The translations under genes were made by a program, and so were the position numbers. This document shows, piece by piece, positions 2,581-63,716 of a stretch of 64,000 nt of DNA. Origin of the DNA: Siphonodentalium dalli (lineage: Eukaryota; Mollusca; Scaphopoda; Gadilida; Siphonodentaliidae). Where the stretch lies: positions 42,073,503 to 42,137,502 of the forward strand of contig CP136065.1 of the NCBI GenBank assembly GCA_032622095.1. The letters run 5' to 3'. Numbering within the stretch: position 1 is the stretch's first letter; every line of letters begins with the position of its first letter. The notes under the pieces were generated by a model. That model did no database searches and was not told the origin of the DNA. It saw only the letters and a program-made list of their open reading frames with translations.

Positions 2581-2829
2581 GCCTAAATTATCGGGAGGAC
2601 GGAATGACGGCATAAATCAATTTCTTAAGTTCCGCAAGTACAGCATAAAGGGATCAGGAACCCACCAAAAATCCATATCAAAGTGTCAATGACACTGTAG
2701 CTCAACTTGGAGGCGTTAATAATTCTATGCTGAGCAGTCAATAGAATGATAACGAGGGAAAGTCAAAATGATTCAGTAAATGGGTTGTATGTGTAAATGA
2801 ATTTAATTTCATTTAAAACATTTCTCCAC

Positions 2830-3850: not shown

Positions 3851-4286
3851 GTCGGAAAAAATGTTCAGGCACGTATGCTGATTTTTTACTTTCGACCCTT
3901 GTTGGGACCCACCGTCGCTCAGGCTCGCTGTATATGAATTTCTGTGCATACTATTTGTCATGGATGTTAACATTGACATGTATATAGGAACGAGTCATTT
4001 TGAGGTCATTCGGCCAAAAAAACATGGCTGCCAGCGGCCATCTTGGATTTCAAAATTTGCAACAAAATACAACACGATAACTGCCTGCAGTCAGTTTAGC
4101 AGTTAGTATTACATTATTTATTTATTCTGAGGTGTTTTAAGCCAAACTCATTGCAAAAATAGTCAAAAGACTTGCATTAAAAAAAATTTGAGTTGCAGAA
4201 AAAAAAAATTATTTGTCCCATGGACCACCTACCCACCCGGCATACGTGCCCGAAAAAAAAAATTGTCCCCCCCCCCCCCCCCCCTG
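3842..4286. mobile_element. Non-autonomous DNA element present only in block 1
   Basis: The other duplication block reads straight through this point (TAATAAATGCGGAAT near 22,362), so the 445 bp are an insertion or a deletion in the other block. The ends are inverted: CAGGGGGGGG then GGCACGTATGC at the left, and the reverse (GCATACGTGCC then poly(C) and CCTG) at the right. ATG flanks both sides, so the apparent target duplication is only 3 bp. A related piece lies at 7,118-7,446. CAGGGG ends suggest hAT, but the short duplication does not. Confidence 0.6.
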
Positions 4287-4289
4287 ATG

Positions 4290-10140: not shown

Positions 10141-11164
10141 GACTATGTGGTACCATAGATTCACGAGTCAAGATTCTTTATTAAAGCTAACCATACATAA
10201 TAGTGTATAAACATATAGATAATAACAAAAGGTGGAATAATAACATTAAAGAAATGAGTATGCCATTATATGATATGCTTCCCCGTTGAACAGGGGCGGT
10301 GGAGCCGGGGGGGGGGCACAGGGGGCACGTCCCCCCCCCCCCCCCACCTTTTTCCCCCAATTATGGGTACATAATCTTCCAATACTAAATACATTGTAGA
10401 AAATAATTTTTATTCCCAAGAAAACATTCCATTAGTAGACAAATGTGTTTAATCTTATCAGTTATGCCAATATGGCTATGCATAGCTAGCAAGATAGATA
10501 GTTAATCCCTTGGTCAGTATTGACACTGTGTTTGAGTAATAGCCCTCTGGGAATTTAACTACAGACTTTGAGTTCTTTGTAGAACTCATGTCTTGTTGGG
10601 GCACCATTATAGCCATGTCTTGAGCACAGCAACTTGTCTAATTAAAATCACATTCATCATACCAATCAAAGGTTTAAATTTGAGTGTCTTCAATAAAAGT
10701 GCAAACATGGGCCTTGGCAGGTATACAATGTCATGCCAAGGTGGTCAAACTCCTGATATGAGATCACTTGCTATATACAATATCAGTTGATGCTGAATAT
10801 TCATTGGAATAACTTGACTAGGATTTTTATCAACTCAGCTAATTCGTTATTAATGAGAAATAAGAAGATTTAGAATAATTATTTTCTACATGAAGTTTAC
10901 TGTGTACATGCAAGTGTTTGTGTACATATATTATTATAGTGTTATTTAATATTCAAAGTTACTTGTGATTATTGTTTCTTCGATATCAACGGTTGTCGTA
11001 TGTGGAGTGAATTGGATTATTCAGTATAGTGTTTACTAATTTCATCATAACATTTATGACAAAGGATGCAGGTTTTAGAAGTTGTATCAACGTCATCGGT
11101 CATCTTTGGAATATATCACACATTGGCTGCAAAAATAAGTGAGTAGCAGAGTAGCATCAATTAA

Positions 11165-11723
11165 CTCTTTCAGTGCCAGGCTTATTTTGTAGGTTTAGTG
11201 CCAGGGAATCTTACGTTTTTCATGGGCATCAAAATTATTACTATGAATACTTGGTGATAGTTTTGAGTTTTAACATGCCCCTAAGGACTTATCCAGTTTG
11301 TTTTTAAATTCGCTATAGCATGCTTAAGCATGCCCATATGAGAATCGACACAGGAATTCATTAACTACATCGGGCCAACTGAAGCAGCATATGAGAATCG
11401 ACACTGGAATTCATTAACTACATCGGGCCAACTGAAGCAGCATATGAGAATCGACACAGGAATTCATTAACTACCTCCGACCAACTGAAGCAGCATATGA
11501 GAATTATACGACTACATACCTGCTGTTTACCTTTGTAAAACCAATGTCAAACCCTTTTACATCCCAAAAAAACGAAATTTTACCAAAAATAACAAATTTC
11601 GAAAATTCCTATTTTTAACAACATTTCTTGACATATTATTTTGTTAGGGCCGATCTCATCGACCCTGGCACTCTACAGACCGTAAATTAGGGCCGATGAG
11701 ATCGGTCCCTGGCACTGAAAGAG
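11165..11723. mobile_element. piggyBac-type MITE, TTAA-flanked
   Basis: TTAA flanks both sides (11,161-11,164 and 11,724-11,727). The 16-bp terminal inverted repeats CTCTTTCAGTGCCAGG are perfect. Further copies of the GTGCCAGGG motif sit subterminally, with GGGCCGATGAGATCGG near the right end. TTAA duplication with this type of end is typical of piggyBac-like elements. At 559 bp with no ORF it is non-autonomous. Confidence 0.85.
11335..11507. repeat. 53-bp tandem repeat (about 3.2 units) inside the MITE
   Basis: CATATGAGAATCGACAC begins at 11,335, 11,388 and 11,441, with a partial unit at 11,494. Each unit contains GGAATTCATTAACTAC and CAACTGAAGCAG. Confidence 0.95.
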
Positions 11724-11899
11724 TTAAACACTCTTTCTTATTTTCTACCCTCATAATGGTAGCCACGAATAACATCACACTAAACAATCTTTGCGCTGGT
11801 GCACAATGGACCAGTTTTCAATTCATACATGTAGTATATTTTTTTTAAATGGTGCCCCCCCCCCACTTTTTTGTAGCTTCCGCCGCCTCTGCCGTTGAA

Positions 11900-16353: not shown

Positions 16354-17841
16354 CTAGACATTTTGCATCCGCGGAATGTATGATGTAATATTGGAATTAT
16401 TTGAAACCATGAAGCACATCCTGGTAGGGTTGACGCATATTCCGACGGGATTGGTTACTGATATTACTGAGCGACTACATTGTCCGTCACGGCTCAGTTC
16501 CATCACTCCATTACTGCCGTAGTTGCAGACGTAAATGTTGGCTCCAAACACACACACGCCCATCGGACCAGATCCACCACACGGTATTGTTCTGAGATGT
16601 GTCGTGAGATCTGGGGACAAAACTACCACATTATCTGCTGTATAATCCGTCACAAACACAGCGTCGGCCTCCGGAGATACAGCCACGCCATGTGGATACT
16701 TGAATGTATATAACGACTGAGAAATGACGTCACCGATCGTTGATAGAGCACGCACGCAGCGATCCGTGAAACATGCAACGACTAATCTGTCGCCGACGGC
16801 TTCGATACCTGCACACAGGAAACGATGTTTGGTGACTAAGATCTGATGTTTGATATACCGATATCTGATCACGATCATCCGTTACGTAGATGCGATCATT
16901 CATAAGACATACACCATATGGTTGGCAGGCGTTCTTGAGAGCGACAGACTTGGTGGTTTCGCCACTTTGGGTTACCACACTGAGTCTGTACTGACCAGAG
17001 GACGCAACAATCATATCCGACTTCAGATTCCTGTTGAGAAATGCCATGACTGACCAAGTTCCTCCGCACGAAAAGTCCATTTCCTTTGCCAATTGTATGA
17101 TAGGCTTTTCACAAATATGGATATTACAGGACTCTTTCAAAATATTCTGTACAGAATCGAGAACGCCTTTATTGGTGACGACTTCATAATCTATCGGCGA
17201 TAAGTCTTCGTAATCGCTGATCAGGCGTTCTGATTTGGATATCGCCTGGCGGAGCTTGATTGAACGTCCGTTAAGGGTTTGAGCTCTTTGTGCAATCGAT
17301 TCTTCAGAGGTGGCATTGTCAGAAGCGACAGGAGCGTCATCTATTCCCGAATTTATCACCGCGGCCCCCTCGCTAGAACCTAATTCCAACTCATGCCCTA
17401 GCTCTTCTGCCAATACTTGTTCTTGCTTCAGTTCGGACAGAACTTTTACTATCTTATCCACACTCCGTGCTGATAACTTGTGCTTTGACATAGTCTCCCT
17501 AACACCATTGATCGTTTTCTGCTCGCAGTCATCAACGACTCGGCGAATCTCAGAAAATAAAGTATGTATCTCCGTTATCATATCATTCTCTCGTCCGTCC
17601 TGCTTGGTTAACCACCCGGGAACAGATTCCTTCACCTCTTTTGCTTTTGAGATTAACTTATCAAGACACGATTCGTATTTTTGGACATCCGCTTTATTTT
17701 TGCTGCAGCCTTCGACAGCTCTTCGAGTTTACATTCGGGATATGTGATTTCATGGCACGAAGCACAGCATGGTATGAAGTGGGTGCCACAGAACGAATCA
17801 AATGGTCGGGAGTCAAGCTCACAGAATACAGCGGACGACAT
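16354..17841 (-). pseudogene. B-box/coiled-coil/NHL-like propeller gene, copy 1 (frameshifted)
   Basis: The start at 17,841 (MSSAVFCELD) follows a retained TTTTATTTTTCAG acceptor, as in the other copies. Order of parts: variant B-box (C-x2-D-x7-C-x2-H-x3-CC-x2-CH), helical coiled-coil region, linker, then propeller blades with GVAVSPEADAVFVTDY and GVCVFGANIYVCNYGS. Compared with copies 2 and 3 there is a 1-bp loss near 17,693-17,703 (CTTTATTTTTGCTG against CTTTCATTTTTTCTG). There is also an 11-bp loss near 16,809-16,815, after GCCGACGGCTTCGATACC. Either break destroys the full-length protein, so the remaining open segments (17,653-17,841, 16,730-17,635 and 16,354-16,878) are in different frames. 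An intact version would be RING-less and TRIM-NHL-like, probably a ubiquitin-pathway or RNA-binding scaffold. That function is inferred from the family only. Confidence 0.85.
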
Positions 17842-18272: not shown

Positions 18273-18694
18273 CCGTGAAAGTCTGTATTTTTTAATGCAC
18301 GGATTCTATGACGGGTGGTGTGTAATAACACAGGACGACACGAGTGTTAATGGGTTTGTCGATACGGCACTTGTACCATCGTGTAAGGATAGAACTCGAG
18401 ACTGTGCCTCTTGTTCCATCCGCCCGCGGTAGCTCTCGTGTCACATCAACAGACCCATTAACACACTCGTGTTGTTATGTGTGTATATAGTACCTGTCCA
18501 CCTGTCTTTCGTCTGATTATATTTTAAGACATCCCTCCAGATGGATAATGGGCCATTTCATTGTATCATTATATAACTATTGGAGAATCCATTTAGCAAA
18601 TAAAGGGTTAATCTGAAGTAGATATATAACGAGACATAATACTTCCCTTGATATATTTCTAGTAGTTTGTAATTCATGGTGTATATATCAAGGA

Positions 18695-20895: not shown

Positions 20896-21389
20896 GTTCT
20901 TTAATTCCGTTCATCGTGAAGAACCAACATGTTTCGTTTTTCAGTTGGGTCTTTATTTAGTTCTTCATGAAGAACAACAACATGTATGTTTGGTTTGTCG
21001 TTTTGGTTTCTCTATGTGCGTGTAGTCACAGTGATTTTCAAATATAACGAGAATTTCTGAATTGATTTGAAGTAATGCGAGCTTTCATGCCATTTCAAAC
21101 TGATATTTACTCCCAGTTAGGGAGCCCTGAAAGTTAATGCGCCTGAATTGTCGGAAGGACCGGACTGACGGCACAAACCAAATTCTTAAGTTCCGCAATT
21201 ACAGCATAAAGGGATCAGGGACCCACCAAAAATCCATATTCATAGTGTCAATGACACTGTAGCTCAACTTGGAGGCGTTAATAATTCTATGCTGAGCAGT
21301 CAATAGAATGACAACGAGGGAAAGTCAACAAGCTTCAGTAAATGGATTGTATTGTGTAAATGAAATTAATTTCATTTAAAACATTTCTC

Positions 21390-22380
21390 CACTAAAAGTG
21401 GTCTGCAGGGTGTGCCGATGGATTCAAATGTGAAATCCAAGATGGCCCCACGCCCCCATCCTTTTTTAAACAAATTTCGGAAGAATAGGGCAGCATCCAT
21501 CTAAAGGTCTCACCAAAGAAACATATGAAGTTTGGATGAGAGATGAGGGACTTGGCATGTATAGTGTGTGCCAAATGATTTAGTCATGCAAAGAGTAAAA
21601 TACATGATGGCTGCCGGCGTCCATGTTTTAGTCGAAAATCGTTCAAATCGATTGCTCTCATCTAGCGGTGATCCTAATCATGCCTGTAAATTTACAAAAC
21701 TGTTCTCAGATATATGCGGGTGCAGAGTGTGCTGATTGATTCAAATTTGAAATCCAAGATGGCTACTGACGGCCATGTTTTTTAACAATTTCAGAAATAA
21801 TCGGTGGCTCCCATCTAGAGATCACCCCAAAGATCCGTATGAAGTTTGATGACGATCGGATGGGGAATGTGGCTTGTAGGGTGTGCCAAAGGATTTAGTC
21901 ATGCAAAGAGTAAAATCCAAGATAGCTTCTGGCGGCCATGTTTTTTTTTAATACAAATTTCGGAAATAATTGGTGGCTCTCATCTAGCGGTCACCCAAAA
22001 GATCCATATGAAATTTTAATGACGATCGGAAGAGGTATGTGGCCTGTAGGCTGTGCCAAAGGATTTAGTCATGCAAAGAGTAAAATCCAAGATGGCTGCT
22101 GGCGGCCATGTTTTTTTAACAAATTTCGGAAATAATCAATGGCTCCCATCTAGAGGTCACCGTAAAGATGAATATGAAGTTTGGTGGTGATTAAATGAGG
22201 GATGTGGTCTGTAGCCAAAGGATTTATTCATGAAAAGAGTCAAATTCAAGATGACTGCCGAAGGCCATGTTTTTTTTTATCAAAAATCGCTCAAATATGA
22301 AAGCTCAAATCTAGATGAGATCCTAAACATGTCTGTAAATTTTAAAAACATTTCTCTAATAAATGCGGAATCAAATTACT
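21390..22380. repeat. ~165-bp tandem array, block 2 copy
   Basis: Same unit as 2,830-3,850, with AAGATGGCTGCTGGCGGCC and ATGTTTTTTTAACAAATTTC. About six units, without the poly(C) interruption. Confidence 0.8.
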
Positions 22381-24560
22381 TCGGTGAATTTAAGTCGTGG
22401 GGTGCAGGTACACTAGGCTATCAGTTCTCGGTCAAATAGCCACTTTCCAAAGTTTTTAATAGGGGCGGGTCAAACTACCCATTTTATCTGAAAATGCTGC
22501 AGATATCCGCTTATTAAGTTGGGTTTCTGTGTTAAGGACATACATACCACAGTAAACGGTGTAAATTTCAAAGACGTACGCGAAAGTTCGAATAAAAGTT
22601 ATATGTTTTACGTTTCGTGGGCTTCTGTCAAGACACAAAACACCCCTTCTTATCTGAAAATGATGCACAAATCCATTTCTTAAGTTATGTTATGATTACA
22701 TAAATGTCATGCTCGTACGTTCTCGAAAGATCGTTTAAAAGTGAGCTTTTTGGGGTTTTGCTTGGCCCCTGGCCCCTTTATGCTGTACTTGCGGAACTTA
22801 ATAATTCGGTTTGTGTCAAGCCTTTCGCACTCAATAGTTCGAATAAAACTTTCTGCGATCCCTACCTATACGGAAACATTTATACCTATAACGTGCCTTT
22901 ATATCCATAAAGATTAACATTTTTTCTCTCACATGCATGACCTTTAATACTATAGTAGGACATAGTAGAGTAGGCGATCGTGGTATAAATATTATTCTTC
23001 GTGATTTTGTCCCGAAATGTTTTACTCTTAATCATAGGGAACTGTAAAAAATAGTTCCTGAACCATCACAAAGCGGACAATAGAATGACTTCCGATGTAA
23101 CAGTTCCTGTACAGAACTTGGTAGAAATGGGTGAATTCCAATTAATCCCGCGTACCGAAAGGGGGGGGGGTGATACATTCCTAGTAGAGTAGGCGATCGT
23201 GGTATAAATATAATTCTTCGTGATTTTGTCCCGAAATGTTTTACTCTTAATCATAGGGAACTGTAAAACATCACAAAGCGGACAATAGAATGACTTCCGA
23301 TGTAACAGTTCCTGTACAGAACTTGATAGAAATGGGCGAATTCCAATCCGTCCTCTTCTATGTTGGTGAACGTGTTCTCGGGTTATCTCGAGTTAGGGAC
23401 GTTGCTATGGGGTTCCAACTGGGGTCAGACCATAACATTTACAACTATATAGGATTTGGTCTAATAAAATTTCCAACTATATAGGATTTGATTTTGAGTA
23501 ATGCAAAATTCCAATATTGGCTTAATAATTTGGGTTTCTATATGTTCTTTATAAGAGTATGATCTGTGTAAATAAAGACAATGACACTAGTAACAAGAAT
23601 GACATAGCATTGATCCATGTTTTATGTATTGAGTACACTGTGCATGCAGCACATTATACATTATATTAATCACAATAAGGCTGAGGAACGAATACGTGTT
23701 TCAATACATGTATTCAAATTCCAAGAGGTCACAAGTTATAACTCACACAATGGTAACAAGTATGCATGCTGACTGAATGTTATGTTGTTAAAGCTTAAAA
23801 TTAAAGAAAGATATTACTGATAGACTAGTGACCATGAATCTATGGTTGGTAAAACATAACAGTCGGAACTTGAAGGAAATGCTTTCCTTTCAATTTCATA
23901 TATGTCTTCAGGTAATGAGCATTACTGGAATTGATTTACTCAATGACTGTGTATTAACTTGTAATATTGACATTACATTGCTAACTTGCAGGACAAATTT
24001 AAATAAACTGATTAATATACTTCTATGAGAGAAACTAAATGTAGAAGTATAATTACGATCATTGGAATTTGAGTCATGAAATTTCCAACTATTTAAAATT
24101 ATGGTCCTCTTTGGGTGAGACACCCCCACATCCCATGTCGTTATGTTCCTGTATCGAGTGTTAGAATTGTGAGCAGAGGTGAATGGATCTTTCCACACAT
24201 ATTCACTAGTGGGAGGATCGAGCAAACGGTTGCTAGGAGACAATGTGTATGCAGAAATATTTTAACTTATCAGCGCTCGCCAATATGCAATACCTATATG
24301 GAACAGGTTCCTTTATGCGCTTCGTGCACATTTTAATATTTAAAAAACAATTTAATATAATTTTTTTCTTCAGATTGAACCACTTTAACAATTAAAAAAT
24401 GTAATTAAGAAAAAATATATATATACACGTCGGGGTACCCGAGGCATCACACCAAATATGGTTGAAATCAGTCCAAGGGTCACGTCTGGGAGCAAAATCG
24501 CGACAAAAAAAACAGACAGACAGACATAATTTACTCTGTAATATATATATCGATACAACA
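22380..24560. other. Non-coding part of duplication block 2
   Basis: Collinear with about 4,290-6,980. It contains a local duplication in which the GTAGAGTAGGCGATCGTGG to ACTTCCGATGTAACAGTTCC segment occurs at 22,964-23,115 and again at 23,183-23,312. No gene recognised. Confidence 0.5.
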
Positions 24561-25346: not shown

Positions 25347-26710
25347 GATATGCTCATGTCCACAGGTGCCCAGAAACTAAAATTGACCACACCCCAATAA
25401 TACTTAATCCTGTAGAATTAAGGCGGGTCAATGTTTTTTTAGGGACCTGTGCTTGAGTATGTTGCTGATGTTCACATCCCAAAGAACATGTTGACCTTGG
25501 TCACGAGCATAGAACAACACCGATTCGAATACGCCCAATGGTAGTTCCAGGTAAAACATAAGAGAACAGAGCCTAGCCTCGTGAAGTTCTAATTTATATT
25601 AGACTCTCGAACAAGCTTCGTCAAACGATCTACTTCTAGTTCTGACAAGTTATAGAGCTTCGTGATTCTACCCACATGACTTACCAAATAGACGAATCCG
25701 AAAGCACAGCCCAAAATCTAATCATTCCTAAATATAGCTCCGTTCGATAACGAAACGAAACTCTAAAGCCGGAAAGATTCGGGGAATTCCCGATGAATTT
25801 CCAGGGTGAATTTCCGTATTTCCGAATTGCCAATAAACTATAAAGAGCCCAAATACAAAATAAATACACGTATCGTCATAGTCGCAGTGCTATATACCTG
25901 AACATTAATTATTGTTGACAAAGCGAAGGGCAACACATCGCGCTAACTCTATTTCGTGTACACAATTCTGGGGAGTGGCATAGATAATTTTAATAATACT
26001 TTATACAATGTCCAGCCTATAATGTTATGTACATCTTACATGTACATATATAAGGCCTTTAAATCGTGCGCTGTACTTCTTCCTCAATAAGTTGAGAAGT
26101 ACCTGGAAATGTATTGCCTGATACTCATGTTTTGTTTGATAGTAATCTGTTTTGTCGAGCAACTAAATATCCATGAAAAATATGTTTGAACTTTGAACTT
26201 TCCGGATCTGGAGGTGGACAGCTCGTGCTTTTTGCCGGTAAACTTAATCGCAAAAGTTACCAATTTTCGATAATACAATTGGGGTTTGAAAAATACATCG
26301 CGGATGACGATGCACGCCTGTGTTTTGTACTGCCTATGCCACAAGTCAGCACCTGTCGCATATTCAGGGACGTGGCTATAGAGTGTCTCAAACGGGATGG
26401 GGTGTGGAGTGTGACTATACATTGACATTTTCAACTGAACCACTACATTGATTCAGGCCAAGCTCTAAAGTTCGCATAATTGGAATTTCCCAATTTGGTA
26501 ACTCTCAGAGGCCCTCGATATCGTCATCCGCGATGTATTTTCCTCAACACAATCGTATTACGGTTCAGCATGCATGGGTAAATTTTGAGATTCTGTTTAT
26601 CGCAAAAAGCACGAGCAAATCAAATCCGGAAAGTTATATTATGCCATCATATCCTCCCATCAGATTGGTTCAATTATAGATCCAATAGTACTGTGATGCA
26701 GTGGACATTT
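25347..26710 (+). repeat. Interspersed repeat A, copy 3 (main part)
   Basis: Continues collinear with 7,514-8,950 after the hAT insertion. The first part of this copy lies at about 24,590-24,671. Confidence 0.65.
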
Positions 26711-27169
26711 AATATTTAGCTATGAATATTAAGCATAATTTAATTAAAGTTATTCTTGATGTAACTTAGTCACTGCGATTAACAAGAGAGTTAGTCGTAG
26801 TGAATCGCTGAAAGGTGTGGGTTATTCAAAGTGCCCCCCCCCCCCCCCAAATCATATTGACCCGAATAAGTAACCACTTGCTGCGCCGTCAATTCACACT
26901 AATAAATGATGGAACTGGATCTCACACCCCATCTTTTTGGTTCGAATGTTCCAACAAGTACATCAGACATGGACGGAGAGGGTTTCCAATGTGGGAGCCA
27001 GTGTTCAACTAAACATTTCCAACTTCAGAAATCTCGAACCAGACGCAAATTCTCGGGAAAGTCCGGGAAATTCTATTTGCACCTCCAAGAGCCATGGAGA
27101 ACAGGGCATACAAGGGATCGAGCCCACTTGTCCAATGATACTTGTAGAAAAAAAGTCATTTGCAGAATA

Positions 27170-27960
27170 TATACCCGACTACTTTCGTTAAAAATCGGTT
27201 AAACTGCGTTCTGTGGAATCTGCTGAACTGTACCCAATAACGTGCTGAACGGGGTTTTGAACTGCTGTTCTGGATGTATGTGGGTCAAATGGTGTTCTCT
27301 CCCTGTATTTGGTTATGGCACATCGACTACAAGTCATCTGTATAACCTACACCCGACTATCTTCGATAAAAACCAGTTAAACTGAGTTTGGCAGAATCTA
27401 CTGAACTGTTCCTGAAAAGTGCTGATCGGGATTTTGAACTACTGAACTGGGGTGAAGATCGGTCAAATTAATGGTGATCCCTCCCGGCATTTAGCTACGG
27501 GCCATCGAATACAAGTCATCTGCATAACTCGACCATCTTCGTTAAAAATCAGTTAAACTAATATTTGGAGAATCTGTTGAACTGCATGTACCCGATAGCA
27601 TGCTGAACGGGATTTTGAACTGCTGAACTGGGATGATCGTTGGTTAAATGGTGATCCATCCCAGTATTTAGTTACGCGAAATCGAATACAATTTGCATAA
27701 CATATACCCGACTATCTTCGTTAACAATAAGTTAAATGAGTTTGGGAGAATCTGCTGAACTGCGTAATATATACCCGACTATCTTCATTAAAAATGGATT
27801 AAGCATTGTTCGGTGAAATCTGCTGAACTGTACCCCACAAAGTGCTGAACGGGAATTTGAACTATTGAACTGGGTGGATGTCGGTCAAATTGTGTTCTCT
27901 CTATGTATTTGGTTACGACACATCGATTAAAAATCATATGCATAACATATACCGTAGTTC
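27170..27960. repeat. ~165-180-bp tandem array, block 2 copy
   Basis: Units are marked by TTTTGAACTGCTGAACTGGG and ACCCGACTATCTTCGTTAA. About five units, some rearranged. Confidence 0.8.
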
Positions 27961-28299
27961 AACCCCCATGCGGGTGTGGAGGGACGTTAAGTTTTTTCAT
28001 AAATGTGTTTTCTTATACACACATGTATACAAGGAAATTTATTCAAACAGATATAAGGCTTGCTGTTCAATCTACAATTGCCATGTCTGTCCACCCGAAT
28101 AACATTTACATGCATATGTACATCGAGGATGTGGATATATCATGACCCCCACCCCTCCCCCACCCCCACATGACACACACTGTGACACATACGCAGATCA
28201 AAAGGGGCGTGGGACAAATAGAACTTGGGAGCGTAGTCTGTTTAAGGCGAATACAATTGGAACTTTCAAGGTAGTAAACCAACCCACTCCCACATACAC

Positions 28300-29110
28300 C
28301 CACCCCAACCACAACAGGGACCATTTCGCCACGTCCCTGAATATGCGACTGTTGCTGACTGGTGTCATAGACATGCGCGTGAATGTGGTGAACGTTATCG
28401 TCGTCCGCGATGTATTTTCCTAACCCAATCGAATTATTTTACAATGGTAACTTTTGCGATTGAGTTTACCGGCAAAAAGCACGAGCGGTCCACCCCCGGA
28501 TCCTGAAAGTTCAAAGTTGAATCATATTTTGATCGACATATTTACTATTTAGTAACTCGCAAAACAAGATAACCACCAAACAAAACGTAAGTATCAGACA
28601 GTACATTATTTTAGGTACATCCCAATTATCGACAGAGAAGTACAGCGCATGCTTTTAAATGTTTAGATGTTTACTAGTGAGTTGTCATGTGTACATTGTA
28701 TAGTATTATTCAAAATCAGTGTCTATTGCACTGTCCGGAATTGTGTGCACGAAATAGGGTTAGCGATGTGTTGCCGTTCGCTTTGTCAACAATAATTAAT
28801 GTTCAAGGAGGCATATAGCACTGCGACATGTGATGATTATTTTGTATTGGAATGTGTATTATTCAGTCCCATTATCTACAACACGCGTACGTGCATGAAC
28901 CTACATGAACACAAAAGATCATTATATATTGTCGGAAGTACGGAAATACATCGGCGAAATCGGAGGGAATTCCCCTACTCGTTACAACTTTTGAGTTTCG
29001 TTTCGTCATCAGACGGAGCTAAATTTAGGAATGACTCAGATCATATCTTGTGCGTTGGACTGTTTCGTCCAGTTGGTAGGTTGAATTTCGAAGCTCTATA
29101 ATTCGCAAGA
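28300..29110 (-). repeat. Interspersed repeat A, copy 4, inverted
   Basis: On the minus strand it carries the same landmarks as the plus-strand copies, including TTGACAAAGCGAACGGCAAC near 28,780. The left end CACGTCCCTGAATATGCG near 28,331 matches, inverted, the CGCATATTCAGGGACGTGG of copy 3 (near 26,358). The 100-codon plus-strand ORF at 28,799-29,101 falls inside it and is not a gene. Confidence 0.6.
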
Positions 29111-39170: not shown

Positions 39171-39504
39171 GATTAACCCTTTCATTATCAAATTGATTTC
39201 CCCATTTCTTAATGGAAAGATACATTGAAATGGCCTATTTCATATCGCGCGATGTTCAGAAAATGTAATCAGACGACAGACACATGAAAGGATCATACAA
39301 GTAAGAGCAGCAGGATTCATATTCATTGGTGAAACAATAGTCTGATAATACATTCAACAAACAGCCTTTGGTGGAACTTTTTAGCTGAACATTTCCTAAT
39401 GGAACTACTCGTCGATGAGCGTTTAGTAAAGAAAGGATTAAGACTTTACTATAACCTGCCATTTCAATGACGAATCTTCCCATTTCAACAATGGTTAATT
39501 ATAT

Positions 39505-39528
39505 TTTGCTTTATTTTTCAGAAAAGTC
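39505..39528 (+). other. Splice acceptor and short 5'UTR before the intact propeller gene
   Basis: A pyrimidine-rich TTTGCTTTATTTTTCAG ends at 39,522, followed by AAAAGTC and ATG. The same acceptor and the same nucleotides up to ATG occur in copies 1 and 3. This supports a spliced 5' leader and a single coding exon, and chooses the start at 39,529. Confidence 0.6.
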
Positions 39529-41028
39529 ATGTCGGCTGCTGCATTTTGTAAGCTCGACTCCCGACCATTTGATTCGTTCTGTGGCACCCACTTCATACCA
39601 TGCTGTGCATCGTGCCATGCAGTCGCATATCCTGAGTGTAAACTAGAAGACTTGACGAAGGCGACAGCACAAATGGAAGCGGATGTCCAAAAATACGAAT
39701 CGTGTCTTGATAAGTTAATCTCAAAAGCAAAAGAGTTGCAGGAATCTGTTCCCGGTTGGCTAACCAAACAGGACGGAAGAGAAGATGATATGATAGCTAA
39801 TGTGAAGAATTTATTTCTTGAAATTCGTAGGATCGTTGATGATTGCGAGAAGAATGCGCTTAATCGTGTGGGAGAGACCATGTCAAAGCACAAACTGGCG
39901 GCACGGAGCGTGGATAAGATAGTAAATGTTTTGTCCGAACTGAAGCAAGAACAACGCGTATCGTCACCAGGACCAGGACAAGAGGTGGAATCATGTTCCA
40001 GCGAAGGGTCGGCTATAAATGTAGATGAAGTTCCTGTCCATTCAGATGCTACTTCTAAAGTATCAACTGCAAAAAGGGCTAAAATTCTAAACAAGCGTTC
40101 AATCAAGCTCCATCAGGCGATAGCCAAGTCAGAAAGTCTGATCGGCGATTATGAAAACCTATCGCCGATATATTACGAGACCGTCATCAATAAAGGCGTT
40201 GTGGATTCTGTAGAGAATATTTTAAAAGATTCTTCTAATATCCATATCTGTCAGAAACCTATCACGATCAGTCAATTGGTCAAGGAATTCGACTTTTCCT
40301 GCGGAGGAACTTGCTCGGTCATGACGTTCCTCAACAAGAGTCCGGAGTCGGACATGATTATTGCATCCCACAAGCCGAACAAACTCAGTATGGTAGCTAA
40401 AAGCGGTAAAACCATCAAGTCTATCGCCCTCGCCATCAATGGCCGACCGATGGGTATTTGTCTTCTGGATAATCTCATCTACATAACGCATATTAATCAA
40501 GATCAGATATCAGTGTACAAAACCTCAGATCTCAGTCACCAAAAATCGTTGCGTGTATCCGGAGGGTGTGGAGGTATCGGATCCGTCGGGGACAGATTAG
40601 TTGTTACGTGTGAGAAGGATTGTTGCGTGCGTGCTCTAACAACGAGTGGTGACGTCATTGCTCAGTCATCACACGCCTTCATCAAAAATCCATGGGGCGT
40701 GGCTGTATCTCCGGAGGCCGACGCCGTGTTTGTGACCGATTGTTCGTCAAATCAGGTGGTAGTGTTGTCACCGGATCTCGCGACACACATCAGAACGATA
40801 TCATGCGGCGGGTATTCTCCGGAGGGTGTGTGTGTGTTTGGTGGCAACATTTACGTCTGCAACAACGGCAGTAATCAAGTGACGGAACTGAGCCGTGACG
40901 GACAACGTAGTCGCTCCGTAATATCAGAAACCTTCCCCGTCGGAATATGTGTCAACCCTGCCAGGGTGTGCTTCATGGTTTCAAGTTGGGCGAACGAGTC
41001 TATCACATCATACGTGGGTCAGATGTAA
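39529..41028 (+). CDS. B-box/coiled-coil/NHL-like beta-propeller protein, copy 2 (intact)
   Basis: A 499-residue single coding exon. Residues 7-37 hold a variant B-box zinc finger, with C7, D10, C18, H21, C25/C26, C29, H30 and C37 as likely ligands. There is no RING before it. Residues 42 to about 150 are charged and helical, a probable coiled coil. A serine-rich linker follows (about 150-185), then a second helical stretch. From about residue 265 come propeller blades, with DNLIYITH, GVAVSPEADAVFVTDC, VVVLSPDLATHIRTI, GVCVFGGNIYVCNNGS and GICVNPARVCFMVS, an NHL/SMP-30-like pattern. There is no signal peptide or membrane segment, so it is likely cytosolic. The family (TRIM-NHL without RING) acts in ubiquitin signalling, RNA binding or innate immunity and is expanded in molluscs. 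The exact role here is unknown. It is the only copy in the window with an unbroken frame. Confidence 0.92.
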   Translation: MSAAAFCKLDSRPFDSFCGTHFIPCCASCHAVAYPECKLEDLTKATAQMEADVQKYESCLDKLISKAKELQESVPGWLTKQDGREDDMIANVKNLFLEIRRIVDDCEKNALNRVGETMSKHKLAARSVDKIVNVLSELKQEQRVSSPGPGQEVESCSSEGSAINVDEVPVHSDATSKVSTAKRAKILNKRSIKLHQAIAKSESLIGDYENLSPIYYETVINKGVVDSVENILKDSSNIHICQKPITISQLVKEFDFSCGGTCSVMTFLNKSPESDMIIASHKPNKLSMVAKSGKTIKSIALAINGRPMGICLLDNLIYITHINQDQISVYKTSDLSHQKSLRVSGGCGGIGSVGDRLVVTCEKDCCVRALTTSGDVIAQSSHAFIKNPWGVAVSPEADAVFVTDCSSNQVVVLSPDLATHIRTISCGGYSPEGVCVFGGNIYVCNNGSNQVTELSRDGQRSRSVISETFPVGICVNPARVCFMVSSWANESITSYVGQM

Positions 41029-45650: not shown

Positions 45651-46010
45651 AGACTCTTGCACAGATCTGACCGCCTTGCAATATTCTAACTTGATCAGTT
45701 CATTTCTGTTCGCTCACTATGATTTGTGTTGGGACTGTATTCGTGAATTAAAGCGACTCACTGAAATAACATAAAAGTCTGTAAAACAAGTACATGAAAC
45801 AATAGATTTACTTTATTCTTATGTTCATTATTAATATCTGTCCAATAATGAGCTTTCGGATGTCAAAACCATAAACATTACTGTCACAGTGGACTTATAT
45901 ACCTATACAAGACAAGTAAGTCCAATAAACAAATCACTGTAACATTTATTGAGGTATGCACATGAAGGCGATATTTTATTGCAAGGTAAGATATAAAAAT
46001 TGTTACATTT

Positions 46011-52103: not shown

Positions 52104-53690
52104 TTATGAATCTGGAAAAACCGAAATAAACTTCTGTACCGCCAAGAATATTTCGGAATTTAATTTGTTTGGAAGTTCGTGAGATCCGTACAATAGAACA
52201 TCGATTGTTATCATACTTACTGGTAAGTTACTTTGAAGTTCTGATCTAATTCTGGCGTAAAGAGGGCATTGAAAGAAGAAATGGTAAGCTGATTCAGTTT
52301 CAAAACTACCGCATTGACACAGTGGTGATTCTTTCAAGTGATTAATAACAAGGTCACGGTTTAGGTTGCTGCAACCTAATCTGATACGAGTATGATATAT
52401 TTGGATTTTCCTGGAATAACACTGAAGATAAAAATTTGCAATTTTCGCACGGTCAATGTTTAGTTTACGCTTAAATTCTTCGAGTGTTTTTGACGATTTT
52501 ATTGAATTCGATAAACTATTCCATGCTCGTGTAGCCGAGGGCAGAAAAGTATTCATGTAAATGTCTCTGTTGCTGCCAGGCGGGTGGATACTAACATGCC
52601 TAAAATTGTAACCAGATGAAGTGGAATCGGGGGAATCATGTTTGATAGATAAGACGGAGCTTGGTTACTAGTAATTTTGAAAAATTGTATCATTTTCTGT
52701 TTTGTTCTACGCGAGGCAATTGTTTCCCAGCCGGTTTCTAATAGTAAGTTGCGATCGCTGGTACTTCTCGTGGACCCAGTGACAATTCGTGCCATTTCAT
52801 ACTGAATATCTTCGATATAATCGCTCATATATTTTGGTATGTTATCCCATACTGGTGATGCATATTCAAGAGTGGGTCTAACAAAAGCAAGATATATATT
52901 TTCAAGGGTCTTTCTGCTCAGTCTGAATTGTGCTTCCTAATCATATTTACCTTTTTCCATGCCCTATCGGTTATGTTACTTATGTGAGTTTCCCATGAAC
53001 CGATGTTGTCGAAAGTAAGACCAAGATGTTTGTTATTTTCTACTTCAGTTATGTGAGAATCAGCCATGATTAGGGGTGGGTGAACTATATTTGTAGATTT
53101 CCTCGATATCATTAAAGCTTTAGTTTTGAGGGGATTAAATTTTACGAGCCATTTTTTGGACCAATCGACAATAGTGGCAATGTCTCTATTAATTATTTCA
53201 GCTGCTAAAACAGGGTTCTCGACACATAAATATATTGATGTATCATCAGCAAATAGACGTATGTTGCACGTGATGTTTTCGGTTATGTCGTTAATGTAAA
53301 TCAGGAATAACAGTGGGCCTAATATTAAGCCTTGAGGCACACCTGCGGAAACATTTTGCCAATCGGAACTAGCATTATCAACTATAACTCTCTGTTGACG
53401 ACATTCAAGATAAGATGAAATTAGTTCATATACTTTACACTTTATTCCAAGTTTCCTAAGCTTAAACAGGAGACCTTTGTGCCAAACCTTGTCAAAGGCT
53501 TTGCTTATATCACAAAAAATACATCGAATTTCTTTACCTTCGTCCAGAGATCTGCTAATATAGTCATATATGTCAGTAAGCTGATATACTGTAGAGTCAC
53601 CTTTTTTTTAATCCAGATTGGTAAACAGAAAGTAACTTATTTTCGTCTAAGTATGTCCAAAGATATTTGTAAATGCACTTCTCATTGTTG
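52104..53690 (-). pseudogene. 5'-truncated LINE (non-LTR retrotransposon), reverse transcriptase to C-terminus
   Basis: Minus strand. It starts within the reverse transcriptase domain near 53,690 (EKCIYKYLW, then STVYQLTDIYDYISRSLDEG). Next come the palm motifs: DISKAFDKVWHKGLLFKL, VPQGLILGPLLFLIYIND, the catalytic FADD box and NPLKTKALMISRK. Then LAFVRPTLEYASPVW, MNTFLPSATRAWNSL, and a CxCGxxETExxxHFxxQCPLY motif near the end, to 52,104. Three frame breaks are evident, at an A8/T8 homopolymer near 53,610, near 52,935 and near 52,640. The endonuclease domain is missing. That is usual for target-primed insertions cut short at the 5' end. It is inactive, in a Jockey/CR1-like part of the LINE tree as far as the motifs show. 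Confidence 0.92.
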
Positions 53691-55089: not shown

Positions 55090-57850
55090 CTCTGCCAACA
55101 TTGAACCACACCATTAGACTCGCGGAAATGCCTACATGTATAATTATATCTAATTTGATAATAATTGGCGATAAACATTTTCATCCTGGTATGCTGGTGC
55201 CCTCTTGTGCCCAACCATTGACCCATCGCCACCTTTAAACCCATGCACACCATTAAATATTCCATGAATATATTATGATTATGTAATTTTGGTGAAAATC
55301 GGCGAAACATAATTTAGTTCATGCACTTTGTGTGTCCCTCCCCTCCCCTTCACTGACTCGAATAGGGCCACTTCATTAGAATCCTCGTATCATGGAGATG
55401 ACTATATTTAACTTTGGTGAAAATTTGCGGCTAAAACATTATTATCAATGTTAGTGCCATTCCCCATTTTGACCCTCCCCTCCCAATGCCTGATCCAGAC
55501 GGCACCAATATGGCGTCTTTAAACCACCCGATTAGATTCCGCTTATCATGGAGAGAAAAATATGTATCAATTTGGTGGAAATCGGCGCTGAAATTATTTT
55601 GCCCCTCCCCTATCCCATCGACTCGAGCGGTGCAAATTTTGACATCTATAAACCACATCATTAGACTCCTCATATCATGTAGATGATTATGTATTAAGTT
55701 TGGCGGAAATCTGTGACAAAAATTGTCATGGATGTTGTTGCCCCTCTCTTTTTTCTGTCCCTGACACTAACAACGTCACTTTAGAAAATTTGGACCTGCA
55801 ACATTATATCGTCCTCGTAAAAGGTGGGAACATGTCTCTATTCCGAAGGTTCGCTATTCCGAAGGTTCACTAATCCGAAGGTTCACTAATCCGAAGGTTC
55901 ACTAATCCGAAGGTTCACTATTCCGAAGGTTCACTATTCCGAAGGTTCGCTATTCCGAAGGTTTTTGTTATTTTAAAAGTTAATTCTATATTCTAAAGTA
56001 TTGAGAGGGTTCTTTAGTACGAAGACTCTTTTTATGAAGGAAATAACTTAAAACATTACAAAAATTAATGTAATTTTTGTTTTCGTGGGTTTCCTTGAGA
56101 TTTAACCCTTTTATATTTGGCGAGTAGAACGACATATATGTCGTCTATCGGCTGAGGACTAAAACGACAAATATGTCGTTTTAGGAAGTGTTATTTTACG
56201 TAGACATAACTTCAATAAATCATCTGATTTATAAATGATTTACATAGGAGTTATTTTGATTAATATAATGTCCCAAATGCTAAAGGCGGACTATAACAGT
56301 GGGGCTATTACGGTCAATCAATACTGGAGCGCTATAACTTACTGTATAGCAGAATACCGCTGAATGGACCTGACTGCAATTCTGACTTTGTTTTGATTTC
56401 AATGTTGATGTTTCTTTCAAGTACAGATTGCCAGTTAGGGTAGAATGCATCTCTAACTCGTAGTTTATTTCAGTCATTGTGTTTTCAACTTTCTATAATA
56501 TTAAAATGATAAACTGATACTGTCTTCTTGCTATTAATAACCGACATCTGGGACAAATTAGATATTAGATTGGGGTGTATAAATGTACGGGGGGTGCAAA
56601 TTTTGATTCATTTCTGGCTAAAAACTCCCATAATAGAAAACCTTCGGAATAGCGAACCTTCGGAATAGTGAACCTTCGGATTGGTGAACCTTCGGATTAG
56701 TGAACCTTCGGATTAGTGAACCTTCGGAATAGCGAACCTTCGGTATAGAGAACCCTACCCGTAAAAGGTTACCCCTGTTAGACCCCTCTGGAGCCATTGT
56801 TAATTTCTATTGAATACAGACTGACATACATTCGCAAATATAGATATAGAAGATAAGATATATAAGTTTGGTGAATATCGGCGACTAAACGCATTCTTAT
56901 CAAATTTAGTACCCCTCTATCTTTGACCCAAGCGGCACCAATTTGACGCCTTTAAACCACACGTTTAGATTCCTCGTATATGACGTGGAGAAGAATACGT
57001 ATCAATTTTGTGGTAATCGATGGAGGTGACTAATATAAGTTTGGTGGATATCGGCATTATCAAATGTATTGCCCCTCCCCATCGTTGATCCAAACACCTT
57101 TAAACCACACGATTAGATAAACTCGTACCACGAAGAAGAATATGTATAAATTTGGTGGAAATCAGCACAGATCCCCTGGTGCAACAACCCCACCATGAGT
57201 ATCCACCTAATACCTTGATACAAGATTTGTACCTATCGGACCAATATGGAGTATAGACTCACTTAATTGCGATAAAAATTAATCTCAAAGTCCCCTGTGC
57301 TTGAGAAAATGTCACATAACAATTTCTTTAGACCATATTCGCACCTTTAATTTGATGTATCTGCCGCATCGATACATGGAAGATCAACAAATATATATAA
57401 TTATGTGCACACATTCGAAACTGGACAAACCATTGAACAGATTCCCATCAAACATAGATAGCACTGCAGAATTCCACTTGTCACAATGAGTCACCATGTG
57501 TGCTCCTGTATATGTGTGTGACCTCTGCAGAGTAAATTATGCAGTGCTTGCTATGCTTATATTCATGGTAGTTACCGTAGTGTAGTCGCACAGGAAACCT
57601 GTGGAAATCAGCATTAAAATGATGTTTATAAATGTTGGTGCCCCTCCCCAAATCTGACTCGAACGGCGCCACTTTTGGCATCTTTAAACCAGCAATTAGA
57701 TTCATCATATCACGGAGATGATTATAAGTTTGATGGAAATCAGCGACAATACCATCGATTATGTTGCCCCCCCCCCCCTTCTTCCCCGGATACCACCAGC
57801 GTCACTTTAGAAAATTTAAACCTCAACCAATATCTTACTGATGAAAACGT
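55090..57850. repeat. Diverged ~150-200-bp tandem array
   Basis: Recurring TTTAAACCACACGATTAGA, CTCGTATCATGGAGATGATT, AGTTTGGTGGAAATCGGCG and GCCCCTCCCC. It is split by the Foldback-like element at 55,826-56,760. Confidence 0.7.
55826..56760. mobile_element. Foldback-like element with ordered 16-bp repeats in its inverted termini
   Basis: A 9-bp target duplication GTAAAAGGT lies at 55,817-55,825 and 56,761-56,769. The left terminus has eight 16-bp units (TATTCCGAAGGTTCGC and variants with TAAT and TTCAC) to about 55,970. The right terminus (from about 56,638) has seven units in inverted orientation. The order of unit variants is the same in both, apart from one unit missing at the right. Both ends begin GGG when read inward. 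The interior has palindromes ACGACATATATGTCGT (56,129-56,144) and an imperfect 22-bp one (56,161-56,182), preceded by TTAACCCTTT (56,102). Long inverted termini built of short tandem repeats with a 9-bp duplication match Foldback elements. No transposase. Confidence 0.85.
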
Positions 57851-58040: not shown

Positions 58041-58091
58041 TTATAGAACACAGCCAGACATGCAGACATTCACAAATATATAGAGGATATC

Positions 58092-58225
58092 CAACGAGTT
58101 ATGTTGGGATATAAGATGTTATGAAACGAGTTTGATAAATTTTATTCACAACGAGTCGTAGACGAGTTGTGAATAAAATTGATCAAAGAGTTTCATAAAA
58201 TCTTATAGCCCAACATAACGAGTTG
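58092..58225. mobile_element. Hairpin MITE-like palindrome (134 bp)
   Basis: CAACGAGTTATGTTGGGATA at the left pairs with the inverse ending at 58,225. The arms are about 65 bp each, near-complementary, meeting at ACGAGTCGTAGACGAGT. It could be one terminus of a larger element that includes 58,225-58,690, where AAAACATATCACAT-like motifs recur inverted. Confidence 0.65.
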
Positions 58226-59160
58226 AAGAACTTGTATATCACATGAAAAAAACTAGAGCTTTATGCCTTTTTAACAAAACAAAATCCTTAAATAAACCTT
58301 TAAAATGCATACATTTACAGCGTTGGCTGAGACGCTCCACAACCGTATTTGATAGTATTGCGCGCTCAGGATTGCAACGAAAATATAGTTCCCCAATTTG
58401 CCTCTTTGTTTTTGTGCCCATTTTCGTTAGTGCAACGAAGTTGGACAAGAATTTTACTTTGATGAACAAATCGATCATTTTATTGTCTGGTTTTGGTGTC
58501 ATGCGCGGCTTTTCAACATATTATTAATCCGCCTAATCAATGTAAAGTAATTTTATTGGCGCGCTACCTTATTGGCGGGAAGCACGCGCTTATTCGTGAT
58601 TACCGCTATCAGACATTCAGCTATTACTCACCAGTGAGAGATAAGCAAATATCAAATGGATTTTCAATGATATTATAGGGGTTTTATGTGATATAGCTAT
58701 AGATTATATGCAGCGACCTTCAATAGAGGAATCATTGCCGTTTCTTTGTGGGGAAAATTGGTCCCAAATTGAGGCGTGAATTATATTTGCGCATAGTCTA
58801 TGTGTTTTAGTTTATTGTTTATATTAAGGGGTTATATAACGGTAAAATATGGCATGAGAGGAACAAAATTACCACTTATTGAAATAGTAGACCAGCATGG
58901 GGCGATTCCAAGCTCATATATATAGTATAAATAGGTAAACTGAAGTCATATATAGCCGCGACTGAAAAAACTTTTAACAGTGCTTTTGGTGAAGAAAATG
59001 ATATTTTAATTATTTTTATGATGATATCACAAATCCTTTAATTTGAGCTACATTGATAAAAACCAAGATCTATTGTTGCCACGAAGGTATAGATAAATTA
59101 TGAACTATCTCTATAGCTTATGTAGGTGATATTTATCAGGAATACGGTCGTAAAATTTAC
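58226..59160. other. Unannotated interval with repeat fragments
   Basis: Overlapping ORFs on both strands at 58,239-58,527 show no recognised domain. 58,690-58,830 is the inverted partner of 46,930-47,160. No convincing gene. Confidence 0.35.
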
Positions 59161-59620: not shown

Positions 59621-60250
59621 GAGTGTGCAAAGGACGTTGTTTTTTTTCTTCCGAAAACGCAAGTCTTATGCCGATTTTGTGCTTGTCTTTTGTCTAATGT
59701 GTACGTGTTCCTAGGAATACTGTTTTGTAAACAAATACCAGATTTTTTTTTATTTTAATATTTATTAAATACCAAAAGTTAATGGAAGTAATTAATATAA
59801 TATTGCAGTCGGGTGTGTCCAATACTGGCCACATATAATGTGTTCGGATGACACACTCTTCGTAACTGATAATAAAACATATTTGACTCATTTATTACAT
59901 GCATTCTACGGTTACAAGTATAACTGCCTTTATTATTATTTCACAGTACGTGAAGATTTCAGCTCGCATTTTCATGATTGTTGTGCAAAAAAATAAAACT
60001 CTGCAAATACATCACCGCTAAGAAATAGATATACTTTGTTCTTATATTCATTATTGATAGCCCTCCAATAACAGAAATATAGTCATTTGAGACCATTGTT
60101 ATGTAAACAAAGCTGTTACAGTGATTTGTCAACAAACATCGCTAATCGTGTAGTAAAGTTCAATATTTTAGTCTGAATAAGATTTCCAGAATAATGTTCA
60201 ATGCTTTGATCCTTTCTTATGTTTACCATTAAGTTTTTTAACTACCTTTG
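59621..60250. other. Unannotated interval
   Basis: AT-rich. 60,000-60,130 resembles 45,790-45,950 (ACTTTGTTCTTATATTCATT and CAATAA motifs). No gene seen. Confidence 0.35.
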
Positions 60251-60254
60251 TTAA

Positions 60255-60636
60255 CCCTTTACCCAACAGAAGGGCCCTGTGCCAATGCATTCTCTTATAT
60301 ATGCGAGTCGACCATAAGTCGCCTCGCATATATACGAGAATGCATTGGCTTAACACATTAAAAATTATAAAATTGTTAAAGAATGTAAGAAAAAATGGTA
60401 AAAAAAGATTTTTTTTAGGCCAATGCATTCTCTTATATATGCGAGGCGACCTATGGTCGACTCGCATATATAAGAGAATGCATTGGCACAGGGCATAACT
60501 GTAACTATCACAATGTGGTCAAGGAGCCGGTTCCAATGATATCCATATTTGTATGGTGTTATTGAGACAGACCGAAGATATTTTAGGCTGTTGAAGCTTT
60601 ATTTGGCCGGTTTTGGCCGGTTTGTTGGGTAAAGGG
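60255..60636. mobile_element. piggyBac-type MITE with doubled nested palindrome
   Basis: TTAA lies on both sides (60,251-60,254 and 60,637-60,640). Perfect 14-bp terminal inverted repeats CCCTTTACCCAACA. Inside, two 75-bp arms (60,275-60,349 and 60,419-60,493) are inverted copies of each other with two differences. Each arm is itself a hairpin (GCCAATGCATTCTCTTATAT to the inverse) around GAGTCGACC/GCGACTTA. So the DNA can fold either as one long stem or as two separate hairpins. No ORF beyond those reading the palindrome. Confidence 0.88.
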
Positions 60637-60640
60637 TTAA

Positions 60641-61100
60641 TAGTTTATTAACCTTTGGTATTTGATTGGACTAATTGGACTTTTATCGATAATTCCAGTG
60701 TAACAGAAATTTTAATAATTAAAATAAGAACAAAGTCAATCTATTTGTTCATGTACTTGTTTATGGCACTCTTCGAACTTGTTATGGAATGCTCGTAGCG
60801 AATTCCTGCATATACATGCATGTTGTCCTGATTTTTGCGATGCATATGGAAGTAGGATTGGGTGCCATTGTATAAAAGAGATCACGCGGATTCGGAAGGG
60901 TGTCTACATCATAGGTTTTCTGGATGGTTATCACACACTTGCCAGGAACGATAAAAAGATTTTTTATTTGCAAATTGGCCACATTTTCCAATAAATAAAA
61001 AAGTCTTATATATTCATCTAATCGGTGTACATATAAACATATTATCGCCCTCTCATATGGCGTTAATGCCACCTCCACTCGCTAGTCTGTTTGAGTTAAA
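60641..61100. other. Unannotated interval
   Basis: 60,650-60,760 resembles the inverse of 60,000-60,130 and 45,790-45,950. A 98-codon minus-strand ORF (60,782-61,078) has no recognised domain. Confidence 0.35.
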
Positions 61101-61904: not shown

Positions 61905-63412
61905 CTAGACATTTTGCTTCCGAGGAATGTATGATGTTATATTAGAGTTTTTACTATTTGAAACCATGAAGCACATTCTGGCAGTGTTGACGCACATTCC
62001 AATGGGACTGGTTACTGATATTACTGAGCGACTACGTTGTCCGTCACGGCTCAGTTCCATCACTTCATTACTGCCGTAGTTGCAGACGTAAATATTGGCT
62101 CCAAACACACTCACATCCAACGGGTTAGACCCACCGCACGGTATCGTTCCGAGATGTGTCGCGAGATCTGGGGACAAAACTACCACCTTATCTGCTATAT
62201 AATCCGTGATAAATACGGCGTCGACATCCGGAGATACAGCCACGCCCCATGGGTGCATGAACGTATATGTCGACTCAGCAATGACGTCACCACTCGTTGT
62301 TAGAGCACGCACGCAACAATCCGTCTGACATGCAACGACTAATCTGTCGCCGACGGATCCGATACCTCTACACCCTTCGGATACAGGAAACGATGTTTGG
62401 TGACTGAGATCTGATGTTTGATATACCGATATATGATTAGAATGATCCGTTACGTAGATGCGATCATTCATAAGACATACACCATGTGGTCGGCGTGCGT
62501 TCTTGAGAGCGACAGACTTGATGGTTTCGCCACTTTGTGTCACAACACTGAGTCTGTACTGATCGGAAGACGCAACAATCAAATCCGACTTCAGACTCTT
62601 GTTGAGAAATGCCCCATGACTGACCAAGTTCCTCCGCACGAAAAATCCACTTCCTTTACTAATTCTATGATAGGCTTCTCACAAATATGGATACTACAGG
62701 AATCTTTCAAAATCTTCTGTGGCGAATCCATGACTCCTTTATTGGTGACGACTTCGTAATCTATCGGCGATAAGTCTTCATAATCGCTGATAATGCGTTT
62801 TGACTTGGATATCGCCTGACGGAGATTGATTGAGCGTTCGTTAAGATTTTTAGCTCTTTGTGCAATCGATTCTTCAGAGGTGGCATTTTCAGAAGCGACA
62901 GGGGCGTCCTCTACTCCCGACTTTATCACCGCGGCCCCCTCGCTAGAACCTGATTCCAACTCATGCCCAAGCTCTGCTGCCAATACTTGTTCTTGCTTCA
63001 ATTCGGACAGAACATTTACTATCTTATCCACAGTCTGTGCTGATAACTTGTGCTTTGATATAGTTTCCCTAACACCATTGATCGTTTTCTGCTCGCAGTC
63101 ATCAACGACTCGTCGAATCTCAGAAAATAAGTTCTGTACCTCTGCCAACATATCCTTCTCTCGTCCGTCCTGTTTGGTTAACCAATCTGGAACAGATTCC
63201 TTCACCTCTTTTGCTTTTGAGATTAATTTGTCAAGACTCAATTCGTATTGTTGGACATCCGCTTTCATTTTTTCTGCAGCCTTCGACAGCTCTTCGAGTT
63301 TACATTCGGGATAGGCGATTTCATGGCACGAGGCACAGCATGGTATGAAGTGGGTGCCGCAGAACGAATCAAATGGTCGAGAGTCGAGCTTACAGAATAC
63401 AGCGGACGACAT
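61905..63412 (-). pseudogene. B-box/coiled-coil/NHL-like propeller gene, copy 3 (one frameshift)
   Basis: The start at 63,412 (MSSAVFCKLD) lies after the shared TTTTATTTTTCAG acceptor. The B-box, coiled coil and linker are open from 63,412 to about 62,617. The propeller is open from about 62,612 to 61,905, with VVTQSGETIKSVAL, GVAVSPDVDAVFITDY and GANIYVCNYGSNEVMEL. Between them two extra bases are present at 62,611-62,616 (AATGCCCCATGAC against AATGCCATGAC in copy 1), so the two halves are in different frames. Repair of this one site would not need any other change, so an assembly or read error is possible. Otherwise this is a recent pseudogene. The domain plan, and so the likely role, is that of copy 2. 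Confidence 0.85.
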
Positions 63413-63716
63413 GACTTTTCTGAAAAATAAAAGCAAAATTATCAACATGGCGCTCATTGTTGAATCGGGAAGGTTCATCATTGAAATACAATATTATCTT
63501 TATACTAAACAAACAGAGTCGAGTAGTTCCCTTAGGAGATATTGAACGAAACATTCATCAGACATCAATTACATATAATACATAAGGCTGTTTGTTGAAC
63601 TTATTATTAGAACATTTTCCGCCAATGAATGGGAATCTTCCTGCACTTTTAAAACACGCTTGTTTCTATAATTACAGTTTTTGTTGTGTCGTATATTTAC
63701 GCATCCATATATGCAA

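Follow-up and report, generated by a model that had tools for sequence, protein, structure and literature searches.

The TTAA element and its surroundings

The window, by which we mean the whole 64-kb stretch of DNA analysed, contains a short element bounded on both sides by TTAA, hereafter EL1; its parts, together with a second TTAA element (EL2), are given in Table 1. Read from left to right, EL1 consists of TTAA, the terminal inverted repeat (TIR) CCCTTTACCCAACA, an interior, the sequence TGTTGGGTAAAGGG and a second TTAA. The initial annotation had proposed perfect 14-bp ends, and these are confirmed (14/14, or 18 when the TTAA is counted); beyond them the ends are 88% complementary over 26 bp, the right copy lying at 60615-60640. 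The span that it gave, 60255-60636, was correctly located but covers only the part between the two TTAAs. When the 18-base end word was searched for with up to three mismatches, its only matches in the window were two exact ones, one per strand, at the edges of EL1, against a mean of 0.08 matches in shuffled sequence. The bases beyond the two TTAAs, compared by eye, differ from each other, thus suggesting that the TTAA acts as the target duplication. The right-hand segment (60495-60622) has no inverted partner listed elsewhere in the element, its last 8 bases excepted, and close to the right tip its minus strand carries the word CCGGCCAAA twice, at a spacing of 10 bp.

EL1 is itself nested in another inverted repeat, the arms of which (60020-60055 and 60714-60749) are 86% complementary. 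A third related arm at 45762-45848 shows 75% likeness to the left one of these two arms over 88 bp and, inside that span, 87% to the right one over 54 bp. Other repeated structures in the window include an imperfect palindrome of 162 bp at 58078-58239, with outer 50-bp arms that are 82% complementary and an inner hairpin at 58131-58187; a hairpin at 7561-7610, CCCACCCCAATAATA...TATTATTGGGGTGGG, which took fourth rank in the scan of the window; and two tandem arrays of a 16-bp unit (55838-55963 and 56639-56754), which lie in opposite orientation about 670 bp apart. Three stretches, 39499-41025, 61908-63493 and 16357-17728, are relatives at the DNA level. NHL repeats were recognised in the first of these, in an open frame of 509 codons, and at 61908-62678 in the second, and no NHL match was found within the scanned part of the third (16733-17728). 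Reverse transcriptase fragments occupy 52107-53607, where RVT_1 was recognised at 52921-53607 and 52107-52664 matched zf-RVT below the cut-off. In our judgement the reverse transcriptase, the NHL proteins and the content of repeats point to a eukaryotic genome, probably that of an animal.

Table 1. Positions of EL1, of its component parts and of EL2 within the window
Feature	Positions	Strand	Remarks
EL1, whole TTAA element	60251-60640	.	390 bp including both TTAAs; sequence and TIR searches
EL1 left TTAA and 14-bp TIR CCCTTTACCCAACA	60251-60268	+	Inverted-repeat and end-word searches
Left arm of mutual inverted repeat	60274-60353	+	80 bp; 77/80 positions match right arm
Palindrome P1	60281-60349	.	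69 bp; inverted-repeat search, hairpin scan
AT-rich spacer	60354-60414	.	61 bp; T runs on both strands; sequence
Right arm, inverted copy of left arm	60415-60494	-	80 bp; inverted-repeat search, arm alignment
Palindrome P2	60419-60487	.	69 bp; inverted-repeat search, hairpin scan
EL1 right-hand segment	60495-60622	.	Last 8 bases within 26-bp imperfect end repeat
EL1 right TIR and TTAA	60623-60640	-	Inverted-repeat and end-word searches
EL2, second TTAA element	11161-11727		567 bp; 20-bp perfect inverted ends including TTAA

The doubled palindrome and its predicted folds

Within EL1 two palindromes, P1 and P2, lie in mutually inverted arms. Each palindrome has arms of 32-33 bp which are 94-97% complementary and enclose a loop of 3-5 nt, whilst the two 80-bp arms that contain them are 96% complementary, with three mismatches, and stand 61 bp apart. 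Both 80-bp arms have in common, in addition to the palindrome, 7 bp of outer flank and 4 bp of inner flank, the latter with one mismatch. Counted from the left tip of EL1, the 80-bp arm begins at bp 20 and P1 at bp 27, and the centres of P1 and P2 fall some 61 bp in from the left tip and 184 bp in from the right tip, respectively. The earlier description of arms that fold on themselves is upheld, although not the size of 75 bp assigned to them, as each palindrome measures 69 bp; likewise the mutual folding with two mismatches that it described applies to the 69-bp cores, and the full arms of 80 bp have three.

When the whole window was scanned for hairpins, P2 (score 28) and P1 (24) were the top two, followed by an AT run (23), and the highest scores in 12 shuffles of the whole window ranged from 8 to 11; a chance origin of these hairpins is excluded by the shuffles. 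As a single strand, EL1 is predicted to fold at -211.6 kcal/mol as RNA (z = -20.3) and at -126.3 as DNA (z = -21.2), none of 100 shuffles reaching this stability in either case; these are energies which apply to isolated strands and not to duplex DNA in the cell. For the part from 60274 to 60494 the long stem formed between the two arms is predicted at -146.6 kcal/mol as RNA, compared to -108.3 for local pairing alone, and at -97.4 as DNA, compared to -76.9, such that the long mutual stem is predicted to be favoured over local pairing. The two alternative folds put forward in the initial annotation are therefore present on paper. Such folds would result from the sequence itself without any need for a function, and a role of the doubled palindrome as a cruciform or as a processed hairpin is possible but unsupported.

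Probable assignment to the piggyBac superfamily and the second TTAA element

The earlier assignment to a TTAA, piggyBac-type MITE is well supported by the TTAA at both edges, the CCCT tip and the perfect 14-bp ends. TIRs that are 12-19 bp long and carry CC[C/T]T are given as the hallmark of piggyBac elements (PMC2872659), with which CCCTTTACCCAACA, at 14 bp and with its CCCT tip, is in agreement, and the length of 390 bp falls within the size of a MITE (usually <500 bp and non-coding). EL1 is overlapped by two stop-to-stop frames of 85 aa or more (60181-60495 on the plus strand and 60201-60518 on the minus strand), neither of which has a Pfam match at E up to 0.1. We consider it likely that EL1 is a non-autonomous MITE of the piggyBac superfamily, the interior of which was built first as a palindrome and then by inverted copying of an 80-bp unit. 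To judge from its family, it would have been inserted at a TTAA by a piggyBac-type transposase supplied from elsewhere in the genome. It speaks against this reading that a piggyBac transposase domain was not found among the 20 ORFs scanned of the 92 in the window with at least 85 aa; these 20 gave NHL repeats, reverse transcriptase and weaker matches below the curated cut-offs. Kolobok elements and T2-MITEs are similar to EL1 in their TTAA target and TIRs, but the tips are RR in Kolobok and AGGRR in T2-MITEs where EL1 has CCC, and a Kolobok origin was rejected on this ground (PMC6004289). Counting against the end architecture of piggyBac and piggyBat, neither end of EL1 has a short palindrome near bp 25 of the type bound by the CRD (at least 6 of 8 pairs); the centres which do reach this number of pairs are at 44.5, 45.5, 76.5, 77.5, 114.5 and 124 from the left and 57.5 from the right.

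Also counting against the reading as a piggyBac MITE, EL1 is present as one copy, no further copy being found in the 64-kb window, nor was there a match in the window across the join that would represent a paralogue with an empty, undisturbed site. Exact-pattern scans of viral and prokaryote contigs gave no match, and neither did blastn at E 1e-5 against plasmids and phages; these results say little and are to be expected for an animal element, as none of these is an animal-genome collection. A search of papers for the words of the TIR and arms gave none, although words that are split or otherwise printed would escape it, and among the papers listed by literature searches no title or start of abstract showed a piggyBac MITE with a doubled palindrome, which is no proof of absence.

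A wider search for paired ends started from the 447 TTAA sites of the window and gave five TTAA-anchored pairs with at most two mismatches in 14 and seven with at most three. In 30 shuffles, pooled, there were none with at most two mismatches and 20 with three, a control which does not extend to the repeats of the real window that explain at least two of the five pairs. EL1 and EL2 make up two of these five. The pair at 25905-28799 was not taken as a transposon since it lies inside a longer inverted repeat running past its TTAAs, and neither was that at 21186-22801, a copy of a dispersed repeat in which the likeness starts outside its TTAA. The remaining pair with at most two mismatches is at 1983-3970, and those with three are at 2625-4722 and 18347-18461.

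A single genomic copy together with the absence of related TTAA elements had been named in the initial annotation as a result that would speak against it. A second TTAA element with perfect ends, EL2, was indeed found; however, it has no sequence match to EL1 (window search, E up to 1) and its tip, CTCT, departs from CC[C/T]T, and it therefore bears on this question only in part. The interior of EL2 holds a 53-bp unit repeated 3.2 times (11335-11504). Words of AGTGCCAGG occur at bp 8 and 52 from its right tip, 44 bp apart, and at bp 8 and 33 from its left tip. Near-palindromes with 6 or more of 8 pairs have their centres at bp 14, 25, 38, 68 and 123.5 of the right end and at 61.5 of the left, those at 25 and 68 of the right end each following a AGTGCCAGG word. 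The left end of piggyBat is described as having a motif and an imperfect palindrome repeated with a 44-bp step, and its right end as being without such a palindrome (PMC11707139). The right end of EL2 is reminiscent of this layout, which EL1 does not have, but the likeness may serve as a lead only, as this level of pairing is attained by about 0.75% of the centres in the window, many centres were considered at the four ends, and the words were already known when the comparison was made.

Origin of the interior and comparison with known systems

The differences between P1 and P2 provide an order for the events which shaped the interior. In the inverted register the two differ at 2 of 69 positions and in the direct register at 7 of 69, and a direct duplication of the palindrome was rejected on this count. 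Between the four half-arms there are three differing sites within the first 33 positions. At position 28 the bases are T in P1-left, G in P1-right, G in P2-left and T in P2-right, and P1 has ATA as its loop where P2 has TAT; as these asymmetries (positions 28/42 and the loop) are mirrored between P1 and P2, the palindrome appears to be older than its inversion. The other two differences, at positions 15 and 33, occur in P1-right and in no other half-arm, and both later changes in the 69-bp cores are located there. We propose that foldback copying would first have produced a near-perfect palindrome with 33-bp arms, and that an 80-bp unit, comprised of the palindrome and its flanks (7 bases on the outer side and 4 on the inner), would then have been copied in reverse across the 61-bp spacer, for example during the repair of a break.

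It is from the shape of EL1 that foldback copying is taken to have acted in it, and accidents of DNA repair could explain how its palindromes came to be arranged. In yeast, the foldback inversions that arise at breaks range in size from 2 to about 150 bp, most of them being shorter than 14 bp; they are primed by inverted microhomology, and the loop was 41 nt in the case studied (PMC11724301). According to the same source, Mre11 processes hairpins with loops of up to about 8 nt and so inhibits foldback inversions, for which reason a palindrome with a loop of 3-5 nt would not be expected to form easily at the first of the two steps (PMC11724301).

A different history, which we regard as unlikely, is that of a nested transposon, in which a palindromic element, either the 221-bp unit at 60274-60494 or each of the 69-bp hairpins, was inserted into a TTAA MITE. 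A palindrome of 69 bp with a 3-5 nt loop does resemble Made1 (PMC1784062), and nesting is present at this locus, where EL1 lies inside another inverted repeat. However, to judge by eye, neither the 221-bp unit nor the 80-bp arms nor the 69-bp hairpins are flanked by a direct target duplication, and the outer and inner flanks are common to both arms; because of these shared flanks a single inverted duplication fits better than two insertions.

It is also rather improbable that the palindromes are the selected part of EL1, where they may act as transposase-binding or cruciform-forming sites which tune its mobility, by analogy with the subterminal palindromes of piggyBac and piggyBat. P1 and the arm around it overlap the zone in which the CRD-binding palindromes of these transposons are located, namely bp 17-33 from the tip in piggyBac (PMC7351741) and, by arithmetic from PMC11707139, about bp 19-32 in piggyBat. 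Subterminal sequences restrict piggyBat (PMC11707139), and in EL2 one end carries short near-palindromes with centres at bp 25 and 68. Against this, neither tip of EL1 has a short palindrome with its centre near bp 25, and P1 and P2 are far longer and have the centres given above, about 61 bp from the left and 184 bp from the right. We hold it very doubtful that a whole MITE family has conserved the doubled palindrome as a selected module, one which would alternate between a pair of local hairpins and a single long one, whether in DNA or in RNA, and so regulate transposase assembly or feed RNA silencing.

Transcription of EL1, followed by cutting of the hairpins into small RNAs by Drosha or Dicer, would be consistent with the very stable predicted folds and has a precedent in Made1 and hsa-mir-548 (PMC1784062), but is highly improbable. 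A search of the window against Rfam gave no match at the curated gathering thresholds. A loop of 3-5 nt is, moreover, short for a typical pre-miRNA, which counts against this possibility. An artefact of assembly or cloning at the palindrome is likewise highly improbable, as, even though inverted duplications are a known type of artefact, such a copy would usually be exact, whilst the arms of EL1 show 3 differences in 80 positions, are bordered by distinct flanks on either side and lie inside intact TTAA and TIR ends.

We thus favour a piggyBac-superfamily MITE with an interior that would have been formed by a palindrome and its inverted copying. Animal transposons are already known to include elements of this type, the TTAA MITEs, and the doubled palindrome is an unusual detail of one copy. 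The mirrored asymmetry, by which the palindrome events can be ordered, provides a small datum on how inverted copying can build the interior of a MITE. Should many genomic copies keep both palindromes, this would point to selection on the structure and the finding would matter more.

Amongst known systems, the coral CMITE families I-VI are similar to EL1 in being small, non-coding and flanked by a TTAA duplication (PMC2872659). Their terminal words begin with CCCTTT in five families and with CCCCT in one, with TIRs of 13-14 bp in families I-III; EL1 differs in its length of 390 bp as opposed to approximately 100 bp, in its doubled palindrome and in a TIR which is absent from Table 1 of that paper (PMC2872659). 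With piggyBac and piggyBat, EL1 shares the presence of palindromic DNA just inside the transposon end, although their palindromes are short, at about bp 17-33, whereas that of EL1 is 69 bp long and P1 has its centre 61 bp from the left tip (PMC7351741, PMC11707139). Made1, a palindromic MITE related to Hsmar1, is comprised of two 37-bp TIRs around 6 bp, and its palindrome is, as in EL1, near-perfect and of similar hairpin size (80 bp compared to 69 bp); however, in Made1 the palindrome is the whole element and is made of the TIRs, whilst in EL1 it belongs to the interior and is found twice, inside piggyBac-type ends (PMC1784062).
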